From Patescibacteria group bacterium (lineage in GTDB: Bacteria > Patescibacteria > Microgenomatia > Levybacterales > UBA12049), in the NCBI GenBank assembly GCA_023381035.1, contig JAMCTK010000050.1, positions 1-11,652 of the forward strand: a stretch of 11,652 bases of DNA, read 5' to 3'. Position 1 is the stretch's first letter; every line of letters starts with the position of its first letter. This document shows positions 947 through 11,652 of the stretch, one piece after another. The position numbers and the translations under genes are program-made. Below the pieces are notes generated by a model. It searched no databases. It saw only the letters and a program-made list of their open reading frames with translations, and had not been told where the DNA came from.

Positions 947-1594
947 TTATTGTGCTACAGCTGTTGTAGGTTGGACTTGAATAGGTTGGGTAACCTGTTG
1001 TGAGACAAAGTTTATTTGAAGAGGAGTCGATTCTTTAAGAACTGATTGTTTAGTATCTAACTCAGAAACCATGCTTTTCTCAAGAAATCCAATACTTGTA
1101 CTTTGAGTTGCGGCAACAGGATTTACCGAAAAAGTAATCGTTGCAACTTTTCCCACGCCCGTCTTTGGTTCACTGTTTGGAGTGATCCCGACCGCATATG
1201 AAATTCTTCCTAGTTGGTAGTCAATGTCTTTAAAAAGAACTATACTGTCCGAATCAGGAAAAAGTGAATCAGTAGGATTAGTTATTTGTATATTTGAAAT
1301 AACTTTTGGATCAAAAGTTGCTTCCATCTGAACCCCTGTAACTTTATTTGTTCCCGTATCAACAACTAAATCTGCTTTTTGCGAAGGAGAAGCTACTTTA
1401 GTATCAATATTTAATATAGCCGGATCAAAGTAAAGTTTAGCAGTTTTTTTAACAGATGGGGAAGTGGCAACATTAGTAACAGCCGGGTTAGTGCTCTGTA
1501 ATTTTTGGGTATTATTTTCGGCGACTGCAAAATAAACCAAAACTACTGTTAAGAAAGCTAATATTATAATCAATAATGTTGTTCTCTTTGGCAT
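947..1594 (-). CDS. Membrane-anchored cohesin-like domain protein
   Basis: This 215-residue protein starts with a short basic stretch (PKR) and a hydrophobic segment (about 7-25), which can be a signal anchor or signal peptide. A low-complexity Thr/Ser/Asn linker runs to about 50. Residues about 50-197 look like a type I cohesin fold: an early strand with VASPSQKADLVVD, the typical TGVQMEATFDPKVI strand pair, a GRISYAVGI strand and the late VGKVATITFSV strand. The tail is rich in Gln, Val and Thr. Cohesins bind dockerins; three dockerin-like proteins are encoded directly upstream on the same strand, so the likely role is the docking partner on the cell surface (inference). The gene has its own promoter 6 bp beyond the stop of the neighbouring dockerin gene. 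No Shine-Dalgarno is visible. The family call comes from strand pattern, not from a profile search; a generic beta-sandwich domain is the main alternative. Confidence 0.75.
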   Translation of the reverse strand: MPKRTTLLIIILAFLTVVLVYFAVAENNTQKLQSTNPAVTNVATSPSVKKTAKLYFDPAILNIDTKVASPSQKADLVVDTGTNKVTGVQMEATFDPKVISNIQITNPTDSLFPDSDSIVLFKDIDYQLGRISYAVGITPNSEPKTGVGKVATITFSVNPVAATQSTSIGFLEKSMVSELDTKQSVLKESTPLQINFVSQQVTQPIQVQPTTAVAQ

Positions 1595-1611
1595 ATTTCT
1601 TGTCTAATTAA

Positions 1612-1640
1612 ATAGTATCTAATAAAAATTACTTAGTCAA
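1612..1640 (-). promoter_or_regulatory. Promoter of the cohesin-like gene
   Basis: On the minus strand TTGACT (1640-1635) and TACTAT (1617-1612) are 17 bp apart, and the ATG is 17 nt downstream of the -10 box. The -35 box begins 6 bp after the stop of the preceding gene. Confidence 0.65.
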
Positions 1641-1645
1641 TACCT

Positions 1646-3913
1646 TTAGTCACCATTCCTCACTGCCAGACCAATCTTTAAAATATTAAGATCTATTTCA
1701 TCAATTACACCATCATCATTGAAATCAGCAAGCTTTTTCTCTGTGCATTGTTTACTGCCAAAACAGGATATGAAGTCGTTGTAATCATGGAGGTCAAGTA
1801 CATTGTCTCCATCTAAATCTCCAGGTATTAACGTAACTGTCGGCAAATTTACCGTTCCGCTCCCAACAGTTTGAATACCTGGCACTCTTTTAACTAATGT
1901 ATTATCAAGATTTAATTTAACAGTATAAGATCCTGCCGGCACTTCGCTTCCTACGGTAACGGTTCCTTTATAGCTATATGTTGTACCATCAAATTTTACA
2001 GTCCCTGGAACTTTTTTAACCAATTTATCTGCTGAATCAAAAATTGATAATACTACACTTCTTGTTTGATTTTTTGGACTAGGATTTTCTCCGACTTGGG
2101 TGTTACCTCCGATCCCTGGAAGCTTCACCTCAATATTAAATGTAGTCTGTCCTGTTTTGTTACAAGAATTAACTTTTTCCCAACCAGAAGGAACATCACA
2201 AGGGGTAGGGAATGCTTTACATTCGCCAGTTTGCGGATTTTGCGCATAAGTAATTACTTGTACGCAAGTATTGCTGCCAACATAATTAAATGCTCCGTAA
2301 GCTTCATAGTTTTTAGTTCCTGGGAAATTTCCTGTTGCTGCATCGCCAGATCCTTTTGTGCAACTCCAGTTCGGTCCTGCACCAGTATTTACTTTGGGGC
2401 AGATCCAAGTGTAGAAATTGTGCCCCCCATTAGCATCAAATTTTACTCTATAGACATTATTGTCAAAAGTATTAGATCCTTGTGCTTTATATAATTTCGA
2501 CCCCGGCAAAGTCGGATCTTTACTGGTATCACCGGAAGTCCAATTGCCGCACTTTGCCCAGTTGATTCCGCTACTTGTGATAGGACAAGTTCTAAAGTAG
2601 AAAACTTTATTGTTTTGCTTTACCCAGGCCTGAAGTAAACCATCTCCATTTTTATCTTTATATGTAAAAGCGTCATATCCACCCCAAAGTTGTCCCGTAA
2701 CAGGATAAGCAGTACTATTTGAATTACCCGTATTCCAACTGCCACACCCTGTAGAACTTGTCATTATATTCGTAGTTTCCGGACATTCTCTCCAGAAGAA
2801 TTTTGAACCGTCAGCCGCCAAAAATGTTTCATTCACTTTCCCGTTATAATTAAAAGCGTCAAATCCTTTATATTTTAAGCTGCTATTTGGAATGGCCGCA
2901 GAACCCGCTTTGTTCCAAGTTCCGTTGCAAAAACCGCCAGCAGAGCATTGCTGCCACCACATATCCCCATTGCTGTCAATAAGAACGTTCATATTGAAAT
3001 AAGTCCCGCCCCCTCCTTTACCACCAGGGGTAGGTGTCGGGCTAGGCGCAGTACCAGTTGGCGTTTCTCCTCCTGGAGGTATAACCTGAGATTTAGAACA
3101 AACATAATCTGGGTAAGGAAGAGATTTTGCCGGCGATTGAGCATTTGAAACGCATGTCCCTCCCTTTGAGCAAAGCCCACTATTTTCACAAACATTAAAA
3201 TCCCAGGCAACCGTGCTGCAACCATTTGTATTTTCTTCTTGAAGTTGTTGATCCCATGAATGACCAAAAATTGCCAAAGCAGCCCTATCAACATCATTCG
3301 GTCTATCACCAAAAGATACCGCCTGTCGTTTGATTACATTCATAAGATAATTCCAAGCAATTCTTTTTCCGATTTCTGTACCAAACCTGCTTTGAAAACT
3401 TCTCTCCTGCCCATTCGCTATATAATTAACTACATTTGGATAAAAGCCAAAATGACTTGTATGCCAACCTCTACAAGCGTAAACTACATCAGCGCTAGGT
3501 GGGCATACAGCATATGGATAACCAGCAGGGCACTTATAACAGCTATTAGGATCTTTACCGTCTAGATTACAAGGTCCGCTAACATGGTACTGACCATCTT
3601 GAGTTTTCTCGTAATTCCATTCCTTTATCCAATAATCTCCGCAATTTTTTAACTCAGGGTAAATTGTGTCCCCATTGCCGGCACCTTTGTAATGGATAAA
3701 TGGAGCAGAAGAAGTTTTATATCCGGCCGGAGGAGGATTTATCAATTTTACATCGCAAACACTTCCCGCAGCGTGTTGTCTTACCTCTTGTTGTTGTTGC
3801 ACCATTAGTAAAGTAACTGGGACGGATATTGCAATTGCCAAAAGAAATACGATGCTAATGGTTCTTTTATAAGAGGAAAAGAAAAAATCTCTAATAAATC
3901 CGAATTTATTCAT
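1646..3913 (-). CDS. Large anchored dockerin protein with four Cys-paired repeats
   Basis: Using the ATG at 3913 the protein has 755 residues. Layout: N-terminal anchor (FFFSSYKRT then a hydrophobic segment about 18-38, then QQQQEVRQHAA); a Cys-rich domain about 50-250 holding one 'KRIAWNY' module (about 176-238); a Pro/Thr/Gly linker (282-303); four repeats of about 60 residues (305-547), each with a Cys pair (323/329, 377/390, 443/455, 505/518); a Cys-containing TPCDVPSGW segment (about 551-584); a beta-sandwich (about 592-695); and a dockerin-like C-terminus (698-755) with two calcium loops (D699-D710 and D730-D741). It should be an exported surface protein. The repeats may form a propeller-like or lectin-like head (inference). 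An upstream in-frame ATG at 3955 would add 14 residues, but it overlaps the -35 box and lacks a counterpart in the paralogues, so I rejected it. Confidence 0.85.
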   Translation of the reverse strand: MNKFGFIRDFFFSSYKRTISIVFLLAIAISVPVTLLMVQQQQEVRQHAAGSVCDVKLINPPPAGYKTSSAPFIHYKGAGNGDTIYPELKNCGDYWIKEWNYEKTQDGQYHVSGPCNLDGKDPNSCYKCPAGYPYAVCPPSADVVYACRGWHTSHFGFYPNVVNYIANGQERSFQSRFGTEIGKRIAWNYLMNVIKRQAVSFGDRPNDVDRAALAIFGHSWDQQLQEENTNGCSTVAWDFNVCENSGLCSKGGTCVSNAQSPAKSLPYPDYVCSKSQVIPPGGETPTGTAPSPTPTPGGKGGGGTYFNMNVLIDSNGDMWWQQCSAGGFCNGTWNKAGSAAIPNSSLKYKGFDAFNYNGKVNETFLAADGSKFFWRECPETTNIMTSSTGCGSWNTGNSNSTAYPVTGQLWGGYDAFTYKDKNGDGLLQAWVKQNNKVFYFRTCPITSSGINWAKCGNWTSGDTSKDPTLPGSKLYKAQGSNTFDNNVYRVKFDANGGHNFYTWICPKVNTGAGPNWSCTKGSGDAATGNFPGTKNYEAYGAFNYVGSNTCVQVITYAQNPQTGECKAFPTPCDVPSGWEKVNSCNKTGQTTFNIEVKLPGIGGNTQVGENPSPKNQTRSVVLSIFDSADKLVKKVPGTVKFDGTTYSYKGTVTVGSEVPAGSYTVKLNLDNTLVKRVPGIQTVGSGTVNLPTVTLIPGDLDGDNVLDLHDYNDFISCFGSKQCTEKKLADFNDDGVIDEIDLNILKIGLAVRNGD

Positions 3914-3925
3914 AAACTCTTTTTT

Positions 3926-3955
3926 AGAATAAAACAATTTTAATAAAATTGTCAA
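3926..3955 (-). promoter_or_regulatory. Promoter of the first dockerin gene
   Basis: On the minus strand TTGACA (3955-3950), an 18-bp spacer and TATTCT (3931-3926) lie 12 nt before the ATG at 3913. The consensus -35 box supports the downstream start and gives a leader of only about 5 nt. Confidence 0.7.
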
Positions 3956-3979
3956 GTAAGAACTTTAAAATTGATTGAT

Positions 3980-6268
3980 TTAATCACCGCTTCTTCCCAT
4001 AAGACCTACTTTTAAAATATTAAGATCTATTTCATCCACTACACCATCATCATTGAGATCGGCTAAATCCTTTTTGTCACATTGTTTTTCGCCAAAGCAG
4101 GATATAAAAATATTGTAATCAGCAAGATTTAAAATATTATCGTTATTTAAATCTCCCGTTGCAAGTTCTGTAGTCGGTAGCGTAATCGTCTGATTTCCCT
4201 TTATAGTTTGGAAGCCTGGTAATTTTTTGGTCAGTGAATTATCAAGTCTTAATTTAACAGTATATGCACCGTCAGGAATATTTTTAGCGGTAGTTAATTG
4301 ATCACCAGTAGTAATAGATCCAGTAAATAAGCCAGAAGAAGTATTATAAGCCGCAGGCACTTCAACCACGCTTACTTGTTGCTCTTTATCATCAAGGAAT
4401 ATAACACTTATCTTTCTAGAAGGATTTTTGGGATTATTATTCTCGCCTAAATTTTCATTTTTCCCAATTCCAGGAAGTTTCACTGAAATATTAAGCGTAG
4501 TTTCTCCCGTAGGAGCCTCAGTTGGAGTAGGCGTTATTGTTTCAGTTGGCGTAATAATTCCAGGTTTTGTACAGGTGAATGATGCAGGTTTCATAGGATC
4601 AATATTTACAGGTTGTATGTGACAATTCTGGCTGCTGGCATTGCTTGGACAACGTCCAATAGAGCCTGCTGTATTACTATTACATGCTTCTTTAATTGGT
4701 AAAAATGGACACCCAATTTGTGTTTCATGATCTTGCAACTGTTGCCAAGTAGTTATTCCAAACTGTCCAAACATTCTATTTGTAAGCCAGTTGAGATCTT
4801 GGACAGTACCTTTTCCTTGCGCACCTTGAACTCTAACTCCAGTCATTGCATAATTCCATCCAAGTCTTGCTGCTTGGTATTTGCCCCAAAACTTATCCCA
4901 GTGATATCCGCCTTGAGCATGTGATTGAGCTATTTCAACCCAAGTTAATCTACCAAGATGTTGACTCCAAGGCGAGAGAGGAGATTGAGCTATTGTAGGC
5001 TGTGTAAGCTGTATATAACATGGATTTGGATTAAAATCTCCAGAAATTGGTGGTAGTGTTCCACTTGGAGTAGGTGTTGCTCCACCGGGTCCTGTTTTAA
5101 CTGTTACATTTATTTCTGCACAAGTTTTGCCTCTAGAATGATTTGTTGAAGAATAATATCTTGCAGAAACCATATGTTTGCCAGCAGATACTCCTAGCAA
5201 ATCACAATAAGGTACGGTACGAGGGTTGTGGCTATCTGCTTTTCCATCAACAAAACAGTCCACTAAGTTGATATCACTAGGTTTATTTGAAGCATTAACA
5301 TCGGCAAGAATTTTTCCACCATAAAGATTATTCGGATTAGTTTTATTAAGAGATAATGAACATGTAAAATCTCCAGCAATCGGAGGCGCAGGAGGAGTAC
5401 CGCTTAAATTTATGTCGCCTATATATCTTAACTGTAAGCATTTTGGGCCATCAGCATAACCATAGCACCATACACTATTATCAGGTGTAACTTGGCCAGG
5501 TTGATCCGTATTCTTTGGGCACTGAGTTTGCCAATTATTATAATCACATGTTTTTTGGCAATTATTTACTGGGATCCATTTATATCTTGTATCATTATTC
5601 GGTGGGTTTGGAACATTTGATGCGCTACAGTTTCCTATACCTCCATTAGGTGTTGATTGGCCTTGTGTTCCTCCTCCATGTGACCCATCACAAAGGTATG
5701 TTGGCGGATCACTACAATCATGTGGATGAATAGAAAGATTAGTGCATGTTTTAGGATCGGTGTATAGAGTATCCCATGAGGCAATAGGGCATTTTTCCTC
5801 TGATTTTACTTGCGCCCAAGTCTTTCCCCATATTTTTTGCGCCGCGTAGTCAATTTCAGTATTTGGGTCAAAGCTTTTTATATCTTTTCTTTTTATAAAA
5901 CCCCAGATGTAATTCCAGGTAATTCTTTTTGCCTGATAATCTCCGTAGATTGCAAACTGATGTGCAAGTTGTCCAGCCACAACATAATCAACATGGGGTT
6001 TAAAGTCAATTCTGTTTTTACCTGCGGTTTCATTGAAAAGCGGTTGGGTATTGTACGAAGTAATCACAGTTGGGTCAACAAGATGAACATAACAAGGGTC
6101 GGGGTTTGGGCAAACTTCAGATGCACGTTGTCTCACATCCTGCTGTTGTTTTACCATCACCAAAGTAACAGGTAATGATATTGCAAGGACAAAAAGAAAT
6201 ACGATGCTAATGGTTCTTTTGTAAGAGGAAAAGAAAAAATCTCTCAAAAAATTTGATTTATTATCCAT
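3980..6268 (-). CDS. Large anchored dockerin protein with duplicated WNY module
   Basis: The protein has 762 residues. Layout: anchor with FFFSSYKRT, hydrophobic segment about 19-39 and QQQDVRQRA; first NPDPCYVHL-type module (about 54-175, with KRITWNY at 114-120); a Cys-rich stretch (about 185-280); an Ig-like beta domain (about 300-393); a Pro/Thr linker; second NPNPCYIQL-type module (about 413-529, with RLGWNY at 468-473); a TP-rich linker (571-589); a beta-sandwich (592-700); and a dockerin-like end (705-762) with loops D706-D717 and D737-D748. Both modules follow the pattern A-[KA]-R-[IL]-x-W-N-Y, then a later W-G/F-G, then W-x-Q and a Cys-Pro, so one arose by duplication. Module function is unknown to me. 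It should be exported and anchored. The first 50 or so codons are almost identical in part to the neighbouring gene at DNA level. Confidence 0.85.
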   Translation of the reverse strand: MDNKSNFLRDFFFSSYKRTISIVFLFVLAISLPVTLVMVKQQQDVRQRASEVCPNPDPCYVHLVDPTVITSYNTQPLFNETAGKNRIDFKPHVDYVVAGQLAHQFAIYGDYQAKRITWNYIWGFIKRKDIKSFDPNTEIDYAAQKIWGKTWAQVKSEEKCPIASWDTLYTDPKTCTNLSIHPHDCSDPPTYLCDGSHGGGTQGQSTPNGGIGNCSASNVPNPPNNDTRYKWIPVNNCQKTCDYNNWQTQCPKNTDQPGQVTPDNSVWCYGYADGPKCLQLRYIGDINLSGTPPAPPIAGDFTCSLSLNKTNPNNLYGGKILADVNASNKPSDINLVDCFVDGKADSHNPRTVPYCDLLGVSAGKHMVSARYYSSTNHSRGKTCAEINVTVKTGPGGATPTPSGTLPPISGDFNPNPCYIQLTQPTIAQSPLSPWSQHLGRLTWVEIAQSHAQGGYHWDKFWGKYQAARLGWNYAMTGVRVQGAQGKGTVQDLNWLTNRMFGQFGITTWQQLQDHETQIGCPFLPIKEACNSNTAGSIGRCPSNASSQNCHIQPVNIDPMKPASFTCTKPGIITPTETITPTPTEAPTGETTLNISVKLPGIGKNENLGENNNPKNPSRKISVIFLDDKEQQVSVVEVPAAYNTSSGLFTGSITTGDQLTTAKNIPDGAYTVKLRLDNSLTKKLPGFQTIKGNQTITLPTTELATGDLNNDNILNLADYNIFISCFGEKQCDKKDLADLNDDGVVDEIDLNILKVGLMGRSGD

Positions 6269-6284
6269 AAATTCTTACTTATTT

Positions 6285-6314
6285 ATAATAGGATAGTTAA
6301 AGTTAGAGCGTCAA
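6285..6314 (-). promoter_or_regulatory. Promoter of the second dockerin gene
   Basis: On the minus strand TTGACG (6314-6309), an 18-bp spacer and TATTAT (6290-6285) lie 16 nt before the ATG at 6268, giving a leader of about 9 nt without a Shine-Dalgarno. Confidence 0.65.
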
Positions 6315-6319
6315 GTGGC

Positions 6320-6337
6320 AGTTTGTTTTTACAAACT
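6320..6337. other. Inverted repeat next to the third dockerin gene's stop
   Basis: A perfect 7-bp stem, AGTTTGT (6320-6326) with ACAAACT (6331-6337), surrounds a 4-nt loop. It touches the TAA stop of the upstream gene and lies just outside the -35 box of the next gene. It may act as a weak terminator or an mRNA 3'-end hairpin, but no T-run follows on the minus strand, so the role is uncertain. Confidence 0.4.
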
Positions 6338-7606
6338 TTAATCTCCTTGTCTTGCTGAAAGAGCAGACTTTAGAATATTAAGATCTATTTCATCCACTAC
6401 ACCGTCATCATTTAAATCTGCTTGGTCTTTGTTAGCACACTGTTTGCTTCCAAAGCAGGCAACAAGGGCATTGTAATCAGCAATATCAATTACGTTGTTA
6501 TTGTCCAAGTCGCCGCTTGCCAGAGTAATAACTGGAAAAGTGTTAACAGTTCCTGCGGTTATATGTTGTGTCCCTACAATAAGCTTTCTTAGCGTATTTG
6601 GGATCTTTACTTTAACATTATAATTTCCTGTTAAAATACTTTTTCCAAGGTCAATATTCCCTTTAAAGTATGTGCCATCAAAAGTTATTTTCCCCGGCAC
6701 ATTTGCCATTTCTTTTGTCATCGTGGTATCTGCCGAGCTATAAAAATATAGTATGACGTTTTTGGTAGGATTTTTTGGTTTATCATTTTCACCCTTCTTA
6801 GTATCAGATCCTATTGCCGGAAGTTTTACGGATATTTGAAGGGTTGTTAAGCCGGATTTCGGACACCAACCACCAGGAGGTATATTCATTATACAGGGCT
6901 GTGCACTATCAAGACAGGGAGGTCTTGGGGTGCAGGTTGGAGTAGGGTTGCCGGTAGGTTTTGCTACAACAACTGGAAACGCATAACTGCAAATTGCACT
7001 CCAAGACTTATTTGCTCCCTGAATTCTGAATTTAGGATTATAAGTCCCAGGTTTTAGATAAGTATTCGAAACCGGGTCAATGCTAATCCCTGAGTCCCAG
7101 GTTCCATTCCCATCAAAATCCCATTGATACCCAACCACTCCGCTACTCGGTCCGCCTGCTTTTCCTGATCCATACAACGTTACCTTTAATGGTGCTGATC
7201 CGCTTGCCGGAGGGATAGTAGATTTTTCGCAAAGAGGCACTTCTCCTGTAGTTGTAACCTGTATACATACATTAGAAGTGCATTTGACCGTAAGGTTTCC
7301 GCCTATCCCACTACAAAAATCAGGGCACTGTTTGGTCGCATCAATATATTTTTTGTTTTCCACAACACAGGCTTTCGTTGTAATATCAGTACCACAACCA
7401 CAGTCACTATCAATTAAGCACGCTGTTTTATTCGTTGGTTCTGGTACGGGTATCGATGCAGCATTTTGCCTGTAAGTTTGTTGTTGACCAACTAAAATTA
7501 CAGTAACAGGAAGAGAGACTAAAAGTGCAAAAAGAACAAGACTAATAACGGTCTTTTTCACTGAGGTAAAAAAAAGACCCTCAAAAATCTCAGATATCCT
7601 ACTCAT
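6338..7606 (-). CDS. Anchored PKD-domain protein with dockerin-like end
   Basis: This 422-residue paralogue has the same ends as the two larger ones. Layout: anchor with LFFTSVKKT, a hydrophobic segment about 19-40 and QQQTYRQNAA; a Cys-rich stretch (about 60-127, nine or so Cys); a PKD domain (about 128-215) with the typical VGYQWDFDGNGTWD and TYLKPGTYNPKFRI strands; a short TPTCTPRPPC linker; a beta-sandwich (254-362) starting LQISVKLPAIG; and a dockerin-like C-terminus (365-422) with loops D366-D377 and D397-D408. PKD domains are common extracellular spacers or adhesive modules, so a surface structural or binding role is likely. It is the first gene of the minus-strand locus and is transcribed divergently from dcd. 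The last residues (RQGD) match the conserved R-x-GD ending of the paralogues (RNGD, RSGD). Confidence 0.85.
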   Translation of the reverse strand: MSRISEIFEGLFFTSVKKTVISLVLFALLVSLPVTVILVGQQQTYRQNAASIPVPEPTNKTACLIDSDCGCGTDITTKACVVENKKYIDATKQCPDFCSGIGGNLTVKCTSNVCIQVTTTGEVPLCEKSTIPPASGSAPLKVTLYGSGKAGGPSSGVVGYQWDFDGNGTWDSGISIDPVSNTYLKPGTYNPKFRIQGANKSWSAICSYAFPVVVAKPTGNPTPTCTPRPPCLDSAQPCIMNIPPGGWCPKSGLTTLQISVKLPAIGSDTKKGENDKPKNPTKNVILYFYSSADTTMTKEMANVPGKITFDGTYFKGNIDLGKSILTGNYNVKVKIPNTLRKLIVGTQHITAGTVNTFPVITLASGDLDNNNVIDIADYNALVACFGSKQCANKDQADLNDDGVVDEIDLNILKSALSARQGD

Positions 7607-7860: not shown

Positions 7861-8436
7861 ATGGTTCTTTCAGACCGTGATATTAAAAAATCTTTAAAAG
7901 AAAAGAAAATTATTATTACGCCTTACCCAGATCTTAAAACCCAGCTTGGTTCTTGTTCGATCGACTTAAGGCTGGGAAATGTTTTTCGCGTATTTGAGCA
8001 TAGTAGAAATCCATATATTGATCCAATGAAAAAAAACTCGAGCCACGAAATAACCCGCGAAGTGAGAGTAAAAAAGGGCGAACATTTTATTATTCAGCCA
8101 GGTGATTTTGTTTTAGCCGTAACTCTTGAAAAAGTCAAAATCAGCTCAAGTTTACTCGGCCGGCTTGAGGGAAGATCGTCTCTCGGAAGACTAGGTATCG
8201 TGGTTCATTCAACCGCCAGTGTTTTTGATCCGGGTTGGGATGGAAATCCTGTTTTAGAGCTAGGAAATTTGGGTAGAATCGCTGTTGCACTTTACCCAGG
8301 GATGAGGATTTGTGCAATGACATTTGAAGAGTTATCAACCCCCGCAGAAGTTCCATACACAAGTAAAAAACAAGCTAAATACTCAGTTCAGAGCCGACCA
8401 GAAGAATCCAGAATTCACGAAGATCTGAAGAAATAA
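7861..8436 (+). CDS. dcd: dCTP deaminase
   Basis: This 191-residue cytoplasmic enzyme deaminates dCTP to dUTP, feeding thymidylate synthesis. Family motifs are clear: SIDLRLG (33-39), GRSSLGRLG (104-112), HSTASVFDPGW (116-126), LEL with the expected catalytic Glu at 133, and YPGMRI (145-150). The C-terminal YTSKKQAKY (166-174) resembles the closing segment of the family. Length is normal. The HSTA...DPG region and the SKY-like tail resemble, from memory, the bifunctional dCTP deaminase/dUTPase of Mycobacterium tuberculosis, so release of dUMP directly is possible, though a separate dut gene follows. It heads the plus-strand nucleotide cluster. The ATG at 7861 fits the promoter. Confidence 0.93.
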   Translation: MVLSDRDIKKSLKEKKIIITPYPDLKTQLGSCSIDLRLGNVFRVFEHSRNPYIDPMKKNSSHEITREVRVKKGEHFIIQPGDFVLAVTLEKVKISSSLLGRLEGRSSLGRLGIVVHSTASVFDPGWDGNPVLELGNLGRIAVALYPGMRICAMTFEELSTPAEVPYTSKKQAKYSVQSRPEESRIHEDLKK

Positions 8437-8477
8437 TACCAATGTCAAATTTCACAATTAAAATATAAAAAGTAAGA

Positions 8478-8852
8478 ATGAAAAACGACAAAGAAAAATT
8501 CAAAAATGAATTTAAGAAAAGAATTTATAGATTCGTTTTAAGTATCATAAGCTACGTAGATGAGCTAAACAGGAAAGACCCAACTTGTAGGGTGATTAGC
8601 GAACAGTTAATAGATAGTGGTACTGGTATTATTTCAAATTATTCAGAAGCTCAAGTATCTAGTTCTAAAAAAGATTTTACTAATTACTTTCATTACTGTT
8701 TAAAATGTTGTAATGAAACAAAGGTATGGATTGGGCTTTTAAGAGATTCAAGTAAAGCAAATAAAGAAAAATCAAATGTGCTTTTAGACGAACTAAATGA
8801 GATAAGTAACATTTTTGGTTCAAGTTTGTTAACATTAAAGGATAGAAAATAA
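8478..8852 (+). CDS. Four-helix-bundle protein (23S rRNA intervening-sequence family)
   Basis: The 124-residue protein matches the pattern of the small four-helix-bundle family first known from open reading frames inside 23S rRNA intervening sequences. It has a helix with FKNEFKKRIYRFVLSIISYV, then the QLIDSGTGIISNYSEAQ turn and helix (family: R-x-SxSIxxNixEg-like), the SSKKDFTNYFHYCLKCCNE helix (family: S-x-KDFxxyLxxAxgSxxE) and a final helix. The biochemical role of the family is not established. Here it stands outside any rRNA, between dcd and tmk. A TATAAA (8464-8469) 8 nt before the ATG may be a weak -10 box, but no -35 box is convincing. It could be a passenger inserted into the cluster. 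Confidence 0.8.
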   Translation: MKNDKEKFKNEFKKRIYRFVLSIISYVDELNRKDPTCRVISEQLIDSGTGIISNYSEAQVSSSKKDFTNYFHYCLKCCNETKVWIGLLRDSSKANKEKSNVLLDELNEISNIFGSSLLTLKDRK

Positions 8853-8891
8853 TTTTATAATTTTTAGGTTATAATTCTTTAGTATTTATTT

Positions 8892-9560
8892 ATGAAGCAT
8901 CACGTATCTTTTGACATTGAGTTTAAAAAAAATAAACTTCCTGGAAAACTTATCGCCATTGAAGGTATTGATGGCAGCGGAAAAACGACCCAAGCGCAAT
9001 TAGTTGTAGATCTCTTAAAAAAGCAAGGATATAAAGCAATTTACACAAAAGAACCAACAGACGAGCCAATCGGAAAATTTATCAGAGAACAAATACTTTC
9101 TGGAAAAGTAAAAGTCCCGCCTATCTCGATTCAGTATATGTTTTCTGCTGATCGGGCAGTTCACCAAGTCGAATTAGAAGAGTATTTAAAAAAAGGCTAT
9201 ATTATTATCACCGATAGATATTTTTGGTCAGCCATAGCATATGGAATTTCTGACTTAAAAGGGAAAGCAGATTATTATCTTTCCGCGCTTTCCATCCTTT
9301 CTTTCTATCATAGATTTTTGACCCCTGACTATACATTCTTTTTAAATATTCGTGCTAAAGAAGCTGCAAAAAGAATTGGCACAAGTGAAAAACACAAAGA
9401 GATTTACGATGACGCAACAAAACTTGTTAAAATAAAAAAAGCTTATGATTTATTGATTAAAAGATTCAGTAAAGAGTTTGTCTTGATCAGTGCAGAACAA
9501 AGTATAGAAAATGTTTCAGAAGATATTTTAAAGAAGATTAAAAAATTGACTAAAAAATGA
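8892..9560 (+). CDS. tmk: Thymidylate kinase
   Basis: This 222-residue enzyme phosphorylates dTMP to dTDP with ATP. It has the P-loop GIDGSGKTT (25-33), the TKEP motif (52-55) contacting substrate, FSADRAVH (84-91) and ITDRYFWSAIAYG (106-118), the DRY-type signature of the family. A Lys/Arg-bearing lid is expected around AAKRIGTSEKHKE. The N-terminus carries about 17 residues ahead of the usual start of the fold (KLIAIEG), which may be a short extension; no alternative Met lies closer to the fold. A TATAAT at 8870-8875 is 16 nt upstream, without a clear -35 box. The stop overlaps the dut start by 4 bp (ATGA), so the two are co-translated. Confidence 0.93.
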   Translation: MKHHVSFDIEFKKNKLPGKLIAIEGIDGSGKTTQAQLVVDLLKKQGYKAIYTKEPTDEPIGKFIREQILSGKVKVPPISIQYMFSADRAVHQVELEEYLKKGYIIITDRYFWSAIAYGISDLKGKADYYLSALSILSFYHRFLTPDYTFFLNIRAKEAAKRIGTSEKHKEIYDDATKLVKIKKAYDLLIKRFSKEFVLISAEQSIENVSEDILKKIKKLTKK

Positions 9561-9988
9561 GCAAAGTTTTCATTAAAAGAATCGACAAAAATTTGGAAAT
9601 GCCTGCTTATAAAACAAAAGGTGCAGTTGGTTTTGATTTATCCGCCCGCGAACAAGTCGAAATAGAGCCGGGTGAAGTAAAACTTATTCCACTAAATATT
9701 GTTGCAAAAATTCCTGAAAGTTGCGGATTTTTTCTTCTTTCCAGAAGCTCAACACCACTAAAAAAAGGCTTACTCGTTGCAAATAGTGTCGGCATTATAG
9801 ACCAGGATTATTGTGGTGAAAATGACGAGATAAAACTCCAGGTTCTTAATTTTTCAAAAGAAAAAGTCGTTGTTGAAAAAGGCGAAAGAATTGCCCAGGC
9901 CATAATTATGAGAATTGAAAAAGTGGAATTTGAAGAAGTTGAGAAAATGAATAATAAATCCCGCGGCGGCTTCGGCTCAACAGGATAA
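9557..9988 (+). CDS. dut: dUTP diphosphatase (trimeric dUTPase)
   Basis: This 143-residue enzyme hydrolyses dUTP to dUMP and pyrophosphate, keeping uracil out of DNA and supplying thymidylate synthase. All five motifs of the homotrimeric family are present: AVGFDLSA (23-30), SRSSTPLKKG (62-71), GIIDQDYCGE (79-88, with the catalytic Asp at 82), KGERIAQAI (108-116) and the C-terminal SRGGFGSTG (135-143). Length is typical. The ATG is embedded in the tmk stop, so translation is probably coupled. Dcd just upstream makes its substrate. Confidence 0.95.
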   Translation: MSKVFIKRIDKNLEMPAYKTKGAVGFDLSAREQVEIEPGEVKLIPLNIVAKIPESCGFFLLSRSSTPLKKGLLVANSVGIIDQDYCGENDEIKLQVLNFSKEKVVVEKGERIAQAIIMRIEKVEFEEVEKMNNKSRGGFGSTG

Positions 9989-10035
9989 AAACCAGTCATC
10001 TGTTCTTTGTTTTTAACCTTCAGTTTTCAGAAAAA

Positions 10036-10091
10036 TGTCATCCTGAGCAAAGCGAAGGATCTAGATTCTTCACCTTTAGTTCAGAATGGCA
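10036..10091. repeat. Palindromic repeat unit, left of the GIY-YIG gene
   Basis: The left arm TGTCATCCTGAG... (10036-10062) and right arm ...TTCAGAATGGCA (10063-10091) are imperfect inverted copies of each other, both centred on GATCT/AGATT. Related units occur at 10396-10434 (one arm) and 10460-10528 (both arms). They resemble a dispersed palindromic family, TGTCATCCTGAGCGAAG...GGATCT, that I have seen in many bacterial genomes (from memory, not searched). Confidence 0.8.
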
Positions 10092-10096
10092 ATGAA

Positions 10097-10381
10097 TTAA
10101 AACGATAAACTTAGATCCTTCCATTCGGGATTCTTTGATTCTATAAGTTCTATCTTTTTTATTCTCAACCAACCTTTTATTTTCTTTTCGGCAGATATTG
10201 CATCATTGACATTTATAAACTCATCAAAGTAAACCAGTCTATTAACATTATATTTCTTAGTAAAACCTTCTATGAGTTTATTTTTGTGTTCATAAATTCT
10301 TTTTTGTAAATTGTTTGTTATTCCGGTATATAAAACTTTATTTGTTCTGTTGGTTAGGATATAGACAAAATAATTTCTCAC
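10097..10381 (-). CDS. GIY-YIG nuclease-domain protein
   Basis: The 94-residue protein is a minimal single-domain GIY-YIG protein of the UPF0213/YhbQ-like group. The first motif is VYI (6-8), the second is YTG (18-20), followed by ITNNLQKRIYEHK with the expected catalytic Arg at 28 and His at 32; the later Glu of AISAEKKIKGW (65) fits the metal-binding Glu. The start must be the GTG at 10381, because an in-frame stop lies two codons upstream. A TATTAT (10393-10388) sits 6 nt before it. The gene is opposite in strand to its neighbours and bracketed closely by palindromic repeat units, which suggests that gene and repeats arrived together as a cassette between dut and thyX (inference). DNA target and cellular role are unknown. 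Confidence 0.88.
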   Translation of the reverse strand: MRNYFVYILTNRTNKVLYTGITNNLQKRIYEHKNKLIEGFTKKYNVNRLVYFDEFINVNDAISAEKKIKGWLRIKKIELIESKNPEWKDLSLSF

Positions 10382-10395
10382 ATACTAATAATATC

Positions 10396-10434
10396 AGATT
10401 CTTCCATCTCGAAAAACTCAGTGTCAGAATGACA
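10396..10434. repeat. Single-arm repeat unit, right of the GIY-YIG gene
   Basis: AGATTCTTC at the left and GTCAGAATGACA at the right match the right arm of the full units. The opposite arm is missing, so this is a half or degenerate copy. It begins 15 bp from the GIY-YIG start codon and covers the region where its -35 box would lie. Confidence 0.65.
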
Positions 10435-10459
10435 AAAATCCAAATTAATTAACTCGAAT

Positions 10460-10528
10460 TGTCATCCTGAATGAAATGAAGGATCTAATTCATTAAAAAA
10501 AGATTCTTCGTTTACACTCAGAATGACA
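10460..10528. repeat. Palindromic repeat unit, upstream of thyX
   Basis: The left arm TGTCATCCTGAATGAAATG.. (10460-10486) and right arm AGATTCTTCG...CAGAATGACA (10501-10528) form an imperfect inverted repeat around a 14-bp AT-rich centre. The right end lies 18 bp before the thyX -35 box, so it could also act as a terminator-like hairpin for transcription coming from dut. Confidence 0.8.
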
Positions 10529-10546
10529 AAATAATAAATTCACCAA

Positions 10547-10576
10547 TTGACAAAGTAAATTCATTTAGTTTATTAT
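10547..10576 (+). promoter_or_regulatory. Promoter of thyX
   Basis: A perfect TTGACA (10547-10552), an 18-bp spacer and TATTAT (10571-10576) lie 8 nt before the ATG at 10585, so the mRNA is probably leaderless. This gives thyX independent transcription after the inserted repeat and GIY-YIG cassette. Confidence 0.7.
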
Positions 10577-10584
10577 ATTCCTCA

Positions 10585-11652
10585 ATGAAAAAGGCAGTAG
10601 CAAAAAGAATCTACAAAATAACCAAACTCCCCATAGAACAAAATCTCGACAAATTTTCCCCTCCTTACACACCAGAAAAATTTACCAAAGAAGAAAAACT
10701 TTACTTAAAACCTTTTTTCAGCAATCTCGACAAACCTGTTTTTGTTGCAACACATTTACCTGAAGAAGTAATTGGCGCACTTTCTTCCCGCTATAGCCGC
10801 TCGACAAAAAGCATCAGAAGAATGTTTTTAGACGAGTACGTTTATCCAATCATTCATCCAGAAGAGCAGAAGGGTTGGGATGAATTGTCCGCAAAAGAGA
10901 AAAAAGAAGCAGAGGAGACCAAAAAGAAATTTCTAGAGCTTATCATTTTTTTGGACACTCACGGAGGAATTGATTACGTCGTCAATGTCCAGCGCGGCAG
11001 AAAGTTTTTCGACAGATGGCTAGCAGAATACGGCGACGATTCAATCGCAGAATTGGGTGGCGTACACATTTTTCTTGAAGGATTATCAATTATCGCCACA
11101 AAAGAAATTGAAGACAAAAGAGTTGGCATTTCGCCTTTAGAAAAATCGACAAGATATGTTTCCTACGCCGACAAAAGGCCGGATGGCGGATATCTTTACA
11201 TCACCCCCGCAGAAATTAAGGAAAGCAAGTTGGAAAAGGAGTTTAAAGAAGCAATGGATGGTCTTTTTGAGGTTTACGTCGGCATTTCAGAGCCTTATTT
11301 AAATTATGTAAAAGAGCTTTATCCAAAAGGAGAGGATGAAACCGAAGCTTCATTTAACAACTCCCGCTCAGCTAAAAGATTTGATGATATCAGAGACCTT
11401 CTTCCATTTTCTACTCAAACAAATGTCGCGCTTTTCGGCAATGGCCGTGCTTTTGAAGACCTTATCAACAGACTTTTAAATCATGAACTTGGCGAAATGC
11501 GATGGTGGGGAAAAATGATTTGCCAAGAGTTAGAAAAAGTTGTTCCTTCATTTGTCAGAAGACCACAAACAGAAAGAGGTGCAGAAGTCCAATTTTACCG
11601 AAGCAATTTAAAAACACTCCGCCAAGAATTGGCCAAAAAAATGATAAGCTCT
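10585..11652 (+). CDS. thyX: FAD-dependent thymidylate synthase, large form (3' end outside window)
   Basis: The frame is open from the ATG for 356 codons to the window edge with no stop, so the protein is incomplete here. ThyX converts dUMP to dTMP using methylenetetrahydrofolate, FAD and NADPH. Visible features: SSRYSRSTKSIRRMFLDEY (68-86); GDDSIAELGGVHI (150-162); the ThyX-like signature R179...S183...E186-x-S188-x-R190-Y191, one residue longer than the usual RHRxxSxNxxSxR; and DIRDLLP (268-274) with FGNGRAFEDLINR and HELGEMRWWG (284-310), matching the ThyX 'LP...N-x-R...EIR' region. Classical ThyX is about 220-250 residues, so this longer form with about 150 residues before the signature and more sequence to come belongs to a variant, possibly with two ThyX-like halves. 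It completes the dCTP-to-dTDP route of the cluster. Confidence 0.87.
   Translation, partial: MKKAVAKRIYKITKLPIEQNLDKFSPPYTPEKFTKEEKLYLKPFFSNLDKPVFVATHLPEEVIGALSSRYSRSTKSIRRMFLDEYVYPIIHPEEQKGWDELSAKEKKEAEETKKKFLELIIFLDTHGGIDYVVNVQRGRKFFDRWLAEYGDDSIAELGGVHIFLEGLSIIATKEIEDKRVGISPLEKSTRYVSYADKRPDGGYLYITPAEIKESKLEKEFKEAMDGLFEVYVGISEPYLNYVKELYPKGEDETEASFNNSRSAKRFDDIRDLLPFSTQTNVALFGNGRAFEDLINRLLNHELGEMRWWGKMICQELEKVVPSFVRRPQTERGAEVQFYRSNLKTLRQELAKKMISS

Follow-up and report, generated by a model that had tools for sequence, protein, structure and literature searches.

In the cellulosomes of Clostridium thermocellum and Acetivibrio cellulolyticus, type II attachment (structures 2b59, 5k39, 5g5d, 5m0y, 4u3s and 4wi0) uses a C-terminal X-module followed by a dockerin, and this dyad fixes the complex to a cohesin at the cell surface. 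Cohesins and dockerins are also known outside cellulosomes, in archaea and in bacteria (PMC9012536, PMC9705933), where one account called their function not known (PMC5244752). Here we analyze four minus-strand genes at positions 947-7606 of an 11,652-nt stretch of DNA (contig JAMCTK010000050.1; "the window" means this whole stretch) that encode a single cohesin and three proteins ending in an X-module and a dockerin. We consider it probable that these genes form a non-cellulosomal surface-display set, in which exported cargo proteins are caught by a membrane-held cohesin on the producing cell.

Several systems without a cellulosome have been described. The cohesin-dockerin pair of Archaeoglobus fulgidus is one of them, and its binding has been reported and used (PMC9705933, PMC9012536). 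Dockerin and cohesin proteins of anaerobic methanotrophic (ANME) archaea have been assigned to the extracellular space, possibly to cell-cell contact; they are many, some have up to five cohesins, and the sections of that account concerned with them describe no compact gene pair with an anchored cohesin (PMC9012536). A protein of Omnitrophota that has nine dockerins has been suggested to serve in adhesion (PMC10066038). The locus analyzed here shares with these cases the absence of a cellulosome, but it adds a conserved two-gene order, an anchored single cohesin and an origin in Patescibacteria, whereas the A. fulgidus pair is archaeal.

Within Patescibacteria, a dockerin protein is known from a Saccharibacterium that we take to be Southlakia epibionticum. 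This protein, SEML1_0315, was reported to be essential, and the main text of the report, dockerin aside, makes no mention of a cohesin (PMC10633639). In Candidatus Shapirobacterales (Microgenomates), a cohesin and a dockerin were both found to be expressed in a 2022 study, which has the same domains in Patescibacteria as our locus but interpreted them as a cellulosome (PMC9123182). In the open literature that we searched, we saw no earlier description of a patescibacterial dockerin-cohesin gene pair, nor, for this group, of its conserved order, of a single anchored cohesin or of cargo bearing X-dockerins.

Results

A stand-alone cohesin on a predicted membrane helix

Four frames were borne out at 947-1594, 1646-3955, 3980-6268 and 6338-7606, all on the minus strand; in the second, an ATG at 3913 is preferred as the start over the TTG at 3955. 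Read along the minus strand, proteins of 422, 762 and 755 residues come first and the 215-residue cohesin protein comes last, with intergenic gaps of 69, 66 and 51 bases.

The last gene (947..1594) had been read from the sequence as encoding a cohesin-type protein, and the fold supports this. Its AlphaFold2 model (predicted local distance difference test, pLDDT, 91.7) contains a helix at residues 3-28 (1511-1588), predicted to lie in the membrane, and strands over residues 52-197 (1004-1441) that make up the cohesin beta-sandwich. In each of two structure comparisons, all 50 of the 50 listed matches were cohesins or cohesin-containing chains, and the A. fulgidus cohesin 2xdh was among the matches. 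The structure prediction proposed as a check on residues 50-197 found a cohesin fold there; the contrary outcome, no such fold, did not occur.

Sequence profiles gave a more divided picture of the four proteins. The cohesin protein scores 19.1 bits against PF00963, under the curated cut-off of 24.1, and a single-sequence search of the PDB with it gave no match. A profile built from 29 cohesin relatives did reach PDB entries of cellulosomal cohesins, at best with E 1e-5, and eight of the nine other homologues carry a precomputed PF00963 match. The Pfam check suggested by the sequence-only reading therefore failed for the cohesin of the window itself, held for eight of the nine other homologues, and held for one of the three dockerins (below). 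Chance resemblance was considered as well and is ruled out by the fold comparison together with the conserved pairing.

The crowning alpha-helix between strands 6 and 7, a feature of type II cohesins (PMC5141474), is missing in the model, where no helix of at least four residues occurs outside residues 3-28. Q89 in strand 3 is invariant in the 29 sequences and aligns with a glutamine of 2bm3 and 3l8q; a strand-3 glutamine, as in SdbA and ScaB, was taken as a type II feature from alignments only. We rejected the assignment of both partners to one known class (type I or II) on the side of the cohesin, as its model has no crowning helix.

Three proteins share one C-terminal plug

The C-terminal 176-183 residues of the three long proteins are homologous (46-52% identical) and consist of an Ig-like X-module directly before a two-loop dockerin. 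This end lies at 1649-2176 in protein 2 (1646..3913, 755 residues from the ATG), at 3983-4531 in protein 3 (3980..6268, 762 residues) and at 6341-6877 in protein 4 (6338..7606, 422 residues), always on the minus strand. Against PF00404 (curated cut-off 22.9 bits) the three scored 21.2, 21.8 and 26.6 bits, respectively, so that only protein 4 passes alone; protein 2 also has a FlgD_ig match under cut-off (24.8 bits). A profile of 14 such ends had the X-dockerin 2b59_B as its top PDB match (E 7e-10).

The AlphaFold2 model of the end of protein 4 (pLDDT 88.9; predicted template modelling score 0.82) agrees with this. Its top eight PDB matches in Foldseek were all type II X-dockerins (E 4.9e-7 to 1.5e-5, the next match being at 2e-3), and VIA-align concurred with Foldseek and with the sequence profile on the cellulosomal X-dockerin dyad. 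Aspartate or asparagine occupies positions 1, 3, 5, 9 and 12 in all six aligned calcium loops, and in the model the loops are followed by helices at 132-140 and 163-172. Both the two-loop dockerin ends and the beta-sandwich common to the three paralogues, which had been noticed from the sequence alone, are thereby substantiated, and the sandwich can now be named as the X-module.

Among the three ends, similarity is highest in the second repeat and last helix (20-22 of 27 residues identical), lower in the first dockerin repeat (17-21 of 32) and lowest in the X-module (42-53 identical over 115-117). Binding in two type II complexes from C. thermocellum is governed chiefly by the last helix, and one of those two dockerins is reported to bind another cohesin mainly via helix 1 (PMC5141474). 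The gradient gives a hint, from residue identities, of three plugs that would fit one socket.

Two cysteines lie between the dockerin repeats and are invariant in all 14 aligned ends; in the three proteins of the window, the stretch that holds them reads CFGSKQC or CFGEKQC. This sets the ends apart from those of type II cellulosomes; perhaps the pair forms a disulfide.

The front parts of the three proteins differ. Proteins 2 and 3 share a front domain of about 110-125 residues (30% identity, E 8e-12), at residues 153-276 of protein 2 and 85-197 of protein 3, with a weaker second match at 461-546 of the latter. Protein 4 has a PKD-like stretch at residues 138-190 (17.4 bits, under cut-off), and the front of protein 3 (residues 45-560) has a sole other database relative, P0040 (43% identity), which has neither a name nor a Pfam domain. 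A scan for glycosidase families at E up to 1 found none in the four proteins of the window, in agreement with the sequence-only reading. Unlike the C. thermocellum and A. cellulolyticus systems, the window has no recognisable enzyme or scaffoldin cargo, and its cohesin stands alone on a membrane helix.

Putative export signals distinguish the dockerin proteins from the cohesin

All four proteins had been credited with hydrophobic N-termini. The helices are present, but they are not alike: those of the dockerin proteins run into a cleavage-like stretch, and the cohesin, like most stand-alone cohesins, has none. Helix and stretch together lie at 7457..7552 in protein 4 (QQQTYRQNA), 6116..6211 in protein 3 (QQQDVRQRAS) and 3764..3859 in protein 2 (QQQQEVRQHAA), all on the minus strand, and from the motif counts below we regard them as putative cleavable export signals.

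R-x(1-2)-A follows the N-terminal helix in 30 of 44 X-dockerin proteins and in 1 of 25 stand-alone cohesins; it is also present in 7 of 8 C-terminally anchored cohesins and 3 of 3 fused cohesin-dockerin proteins. When small-x-Ala sites are counted too, the numbers become 42 of 44, 7 of 25, 8 of 8 and 3 of 3, respectively. These counts use loose patterns and include the window proteins; frames cut at the start were excluded, as was one stand-alone cohesin whose helix was unclear.

A glutamine-rich stretch ending in R-x-A after the helix is common to otherwise different exported proteins of the lineage. It resembles an export or cleavage signal peculiar to this lineage. We read it as a signal cleavage site because C-terminally anchored proteins have it too; if so, the dockerin proteins would be freed from the membrane and the cohesin would stay in it. 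Most likely, as far as these motifs can tell, the dockerin proteins are secreted and then caught by the membrane-held cohesin. The earlier reading had left open whether the complex sits on one cell or bridges two. Probable secretion of the dockerin proteins, followed by tethering, favors the producing cell.

In the mechanism that we propose, three exported proteins with different cargo fronts would end in one plug, the X-module with its dockerin of two calcium loops. The cohesin protein would be held in the membrane by its uncleaved N-terminal helix with the cohesin domain outside, and this socket would catch the plugs on the producing cell, presumably by calcium-dependent binding and one dockerin at a time. 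As one cohesin holds one dockerin, the three X-dockerins would compete for it or use further cohesins.

The gene pair is conserved in small genomes

The closest named relative, at 48% identity, comes from a metagenome-assembled genome (MAG) labelled Candidatus Parcubacteria (L001), and 15 of 24 related loci carry a Levybacteria or Levyibacteriota label. Genome sizes of the 22 relatives searched were 0.7-1.4 Mb. The labels and the small genomes support the earlier suggestion that the window comes from the Candidate Phyla Radiation, an origin that we regard as well supported; the source bacterium is probably tiny and host-dependent.

In 15 of the 24 loci, all found through the cohesin only, a same-strand neighboring frame (at least 80 residues) matched the X-dockerin profile, 14 times upstream and once downstream of the cohesin. 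The other nine had no dockerin neighbor, two of them starting inside the cohesin at a contig end. Two of the loci lie on one contig, and some profile matches (e.g. L023 and L024) span the dockerin part only.

A broader sample comprised 192 genomes drawn evenly from the phylum to which a Levybacteria MAG belongs (G003, the genome of locus L003), a phylum that we take to be Patescibacteria. A cohesin was found in 55, a dockerin in 74 and both in 42 (Fisher p 1.2e-11; this and the following counts uncorrected for kinship); dockerins thus occurred in 42 of 55 genomes with a cohesin compared to 32 of 137 others. Laminin-G, a surface domain like the other two, present in 94 of the 192 and used as a control, was tied neither to cohesin (28/55 vs 66/137, p 0.43) nor to dockerin (36/74 vs 58/118, p 0.59). 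The Pfam counts should be read as minima: no PF00963 match was obtained in G002, though our custom profile identifies a clear relative at its locus L002.

Cohesin and dockerin were at most 3 kb apart in 32 of the 42 genomes with both, where random placing on 1 Mb would give about 1. The dockerin of these close pairs was a separate upstream frame in 30 cases, a downstream frame in one and part of the same frame in one. Inspection by eye of 20 of the 32 places revealed a hydrophobic C-terminal segment on several cohesins. One genome of the sample, G202, had 21 dockerin matches and no cohesin match at E 0.001.

For comparison we used 61 genomes from the phylum of an Anaerolineae MAG (G214). Five had a cohesin and seven a dockerin, and all five with a cohesin had both, numbers too small for a test; many of the cohesin and dockerin matches lay in frames of equal length and are therefore probably fused.

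Other cohesins and dockerins in the relatives

The sequence-only reading had called the set complete. The pair itself stands, but relatives have more members than the window does. Ten loci (L025, L026, L028, L031, L033, L036 and L039-L042) encode a cohesin-like protein that carries a hydrophobic segment at its C-terminus. These proteins have 388-412 residues with a part that is PKD-like by eye, or 290 residues without it (L042), and some have LPxTG-like letters before the segment. In three of the ten loci (L025, L040 and L042), the flanking genes are presumably lepA and groEL, named from their sequences. Relatives also encode cohesin-X-dockerin fusions of about 390-420 residues (L029:334-1575, L037:1513-2769 and L038:1829-3004), whose layout resembles that of adaptor scaffoldins, and three proteins (P0013-P0015) have both Pfam domains.

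We scanned 57 related proteins, 50 dockerin proteins and 7 wall-type cohesin proteins, for further domains. Pfam recognized a dockerin in 39 and a cohesin in 9. The other domains were mostly of binding or adhesion types: CBM_4_9, SdrD_B and FG-GAP_3 in four proteins each, a beta-helix in three and VWA in one. PKD (PF00801) occurred in eight proteins: seven belong to the subset in which the seven wall-type cohesins were scanned, and one, protein 4, to the subset that holds the proteins of the window.

Surroundings of the four genes

The plus-strand neighbors at 7861-11652 are presumably genes for dCTP deaminase, thymidylate kinase, dUTPase and a ThyX-like protein, and 10097-10381 we take to be a small GIY-YIG-like endonuclease gene, with a similar gene in L083. 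Genes resembling those for dCTP deaminase and thymidylate kinase also lie near dockerin or cohesin genes in L002, L004, L006, L018 and L019. A scan for promoters and terminators did not exceed the level of shuffled sequence (24 vs 22.8 and 4 vs 5.5, respectively) and was not used.

Discussion

One alternative to capture by the stand-alone cohesin is that the X-dockerins bind chiefly to different cohesins made by the same cell, either the C-terminally anchored ones or the fused adaptors, and that the stand-alone cohesin has a different ligand. Relatives carry both kinds of protein, and a sortase match was obtained in 21 of the 22 genomes searched. However, it is the stand-alone cohesin gene whose adjacency to a dockerin gene, and order relative to it, is conserved; moreover, a second cohesin is encoded in G001, which is the genome of the closest relative and the one without a sortase match. 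We regard this alternative as unlikely, though it fares better than the others.

Another possibility is a cellulosome-like complex, reduced in its parts, for binding and degrading polysaccharide. It would use the same domain pair, and the 57 related proteins offer some candidates: the four with CBM_4_9 and two with Pel9A-like beta-helices, all above cut-off, one subtilase and one M64 peptidase, single occurrences of GH115_C, Glyco_hydro_65C and NPCBM_assoc, and a Cip1-like polysaccharide-lyase stretch under cut-off. On the other hand, the four window proteins have no glycosidase domain, no glycosidase catalytic domain was among the families listed for the 57 (14/14, 25/27 and 22/22 families), and the matches with GH names are C-terminal domains by name. 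We therefore consider such a complex improbable. A cellulosome proper, with a multi-cohesin scaffoldin and dockerin-bearing hydrolases, was rejected for the window, which has one cohesin and no glycosidase in its four proteins.

The least likely explanation, a generic cluster of surface genes in which the cohesin-like sandwich and the ends with calcium loops would be structural modules without mutual binding, could appeal to the predicted nature of the binding, to the weak Pfam matches in the window and to the 32 of 192 genomes with a dockerin and no cohesin (G202 among them). Against it stand the joint occurrence of the two domains and the one-sided order of their genes, laminin-G having shown no comparable association, and the fact that X-module and dockerin are the cohesin-binding dyad of cellulosomes.

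Display of secreted cargo on a membrane-held cohesin is thus the explanation that we favor. What the cargo does can be guessed: the domain types in the relatives and the lifestyle of cultured Patescibacteria as reported (PMC10633639) are our grounds for suggesting a part in attachment, whether to surfaces, to sugars or to a host cell, and a role in binding or degrading polysaccharide may also be considered. A more general proposal, which we put forward tentatively and hold to be doubtful as a whole, is that part of the Patescibacteria has a dedicated display machine. In it, an anchored single cohesin encoded behind a dockerin gene, sometimes joined by wall-anchored cohesins and cohesin-X-dockerin adaptors, would carry exchangeable secreted proteins that keep the small cell attached to its host or to neighbors.

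A gene pair whose order is conserved in many small genomes, with three cargo proteins that share one plug, offers a minimal set amenable to expression and testing. If our explanation is true, such pairs would be a source of small new binding partners, and reduced, host-dependent bacteria could remodel their surface by exchanging the secreted proteins that one anchor carries.
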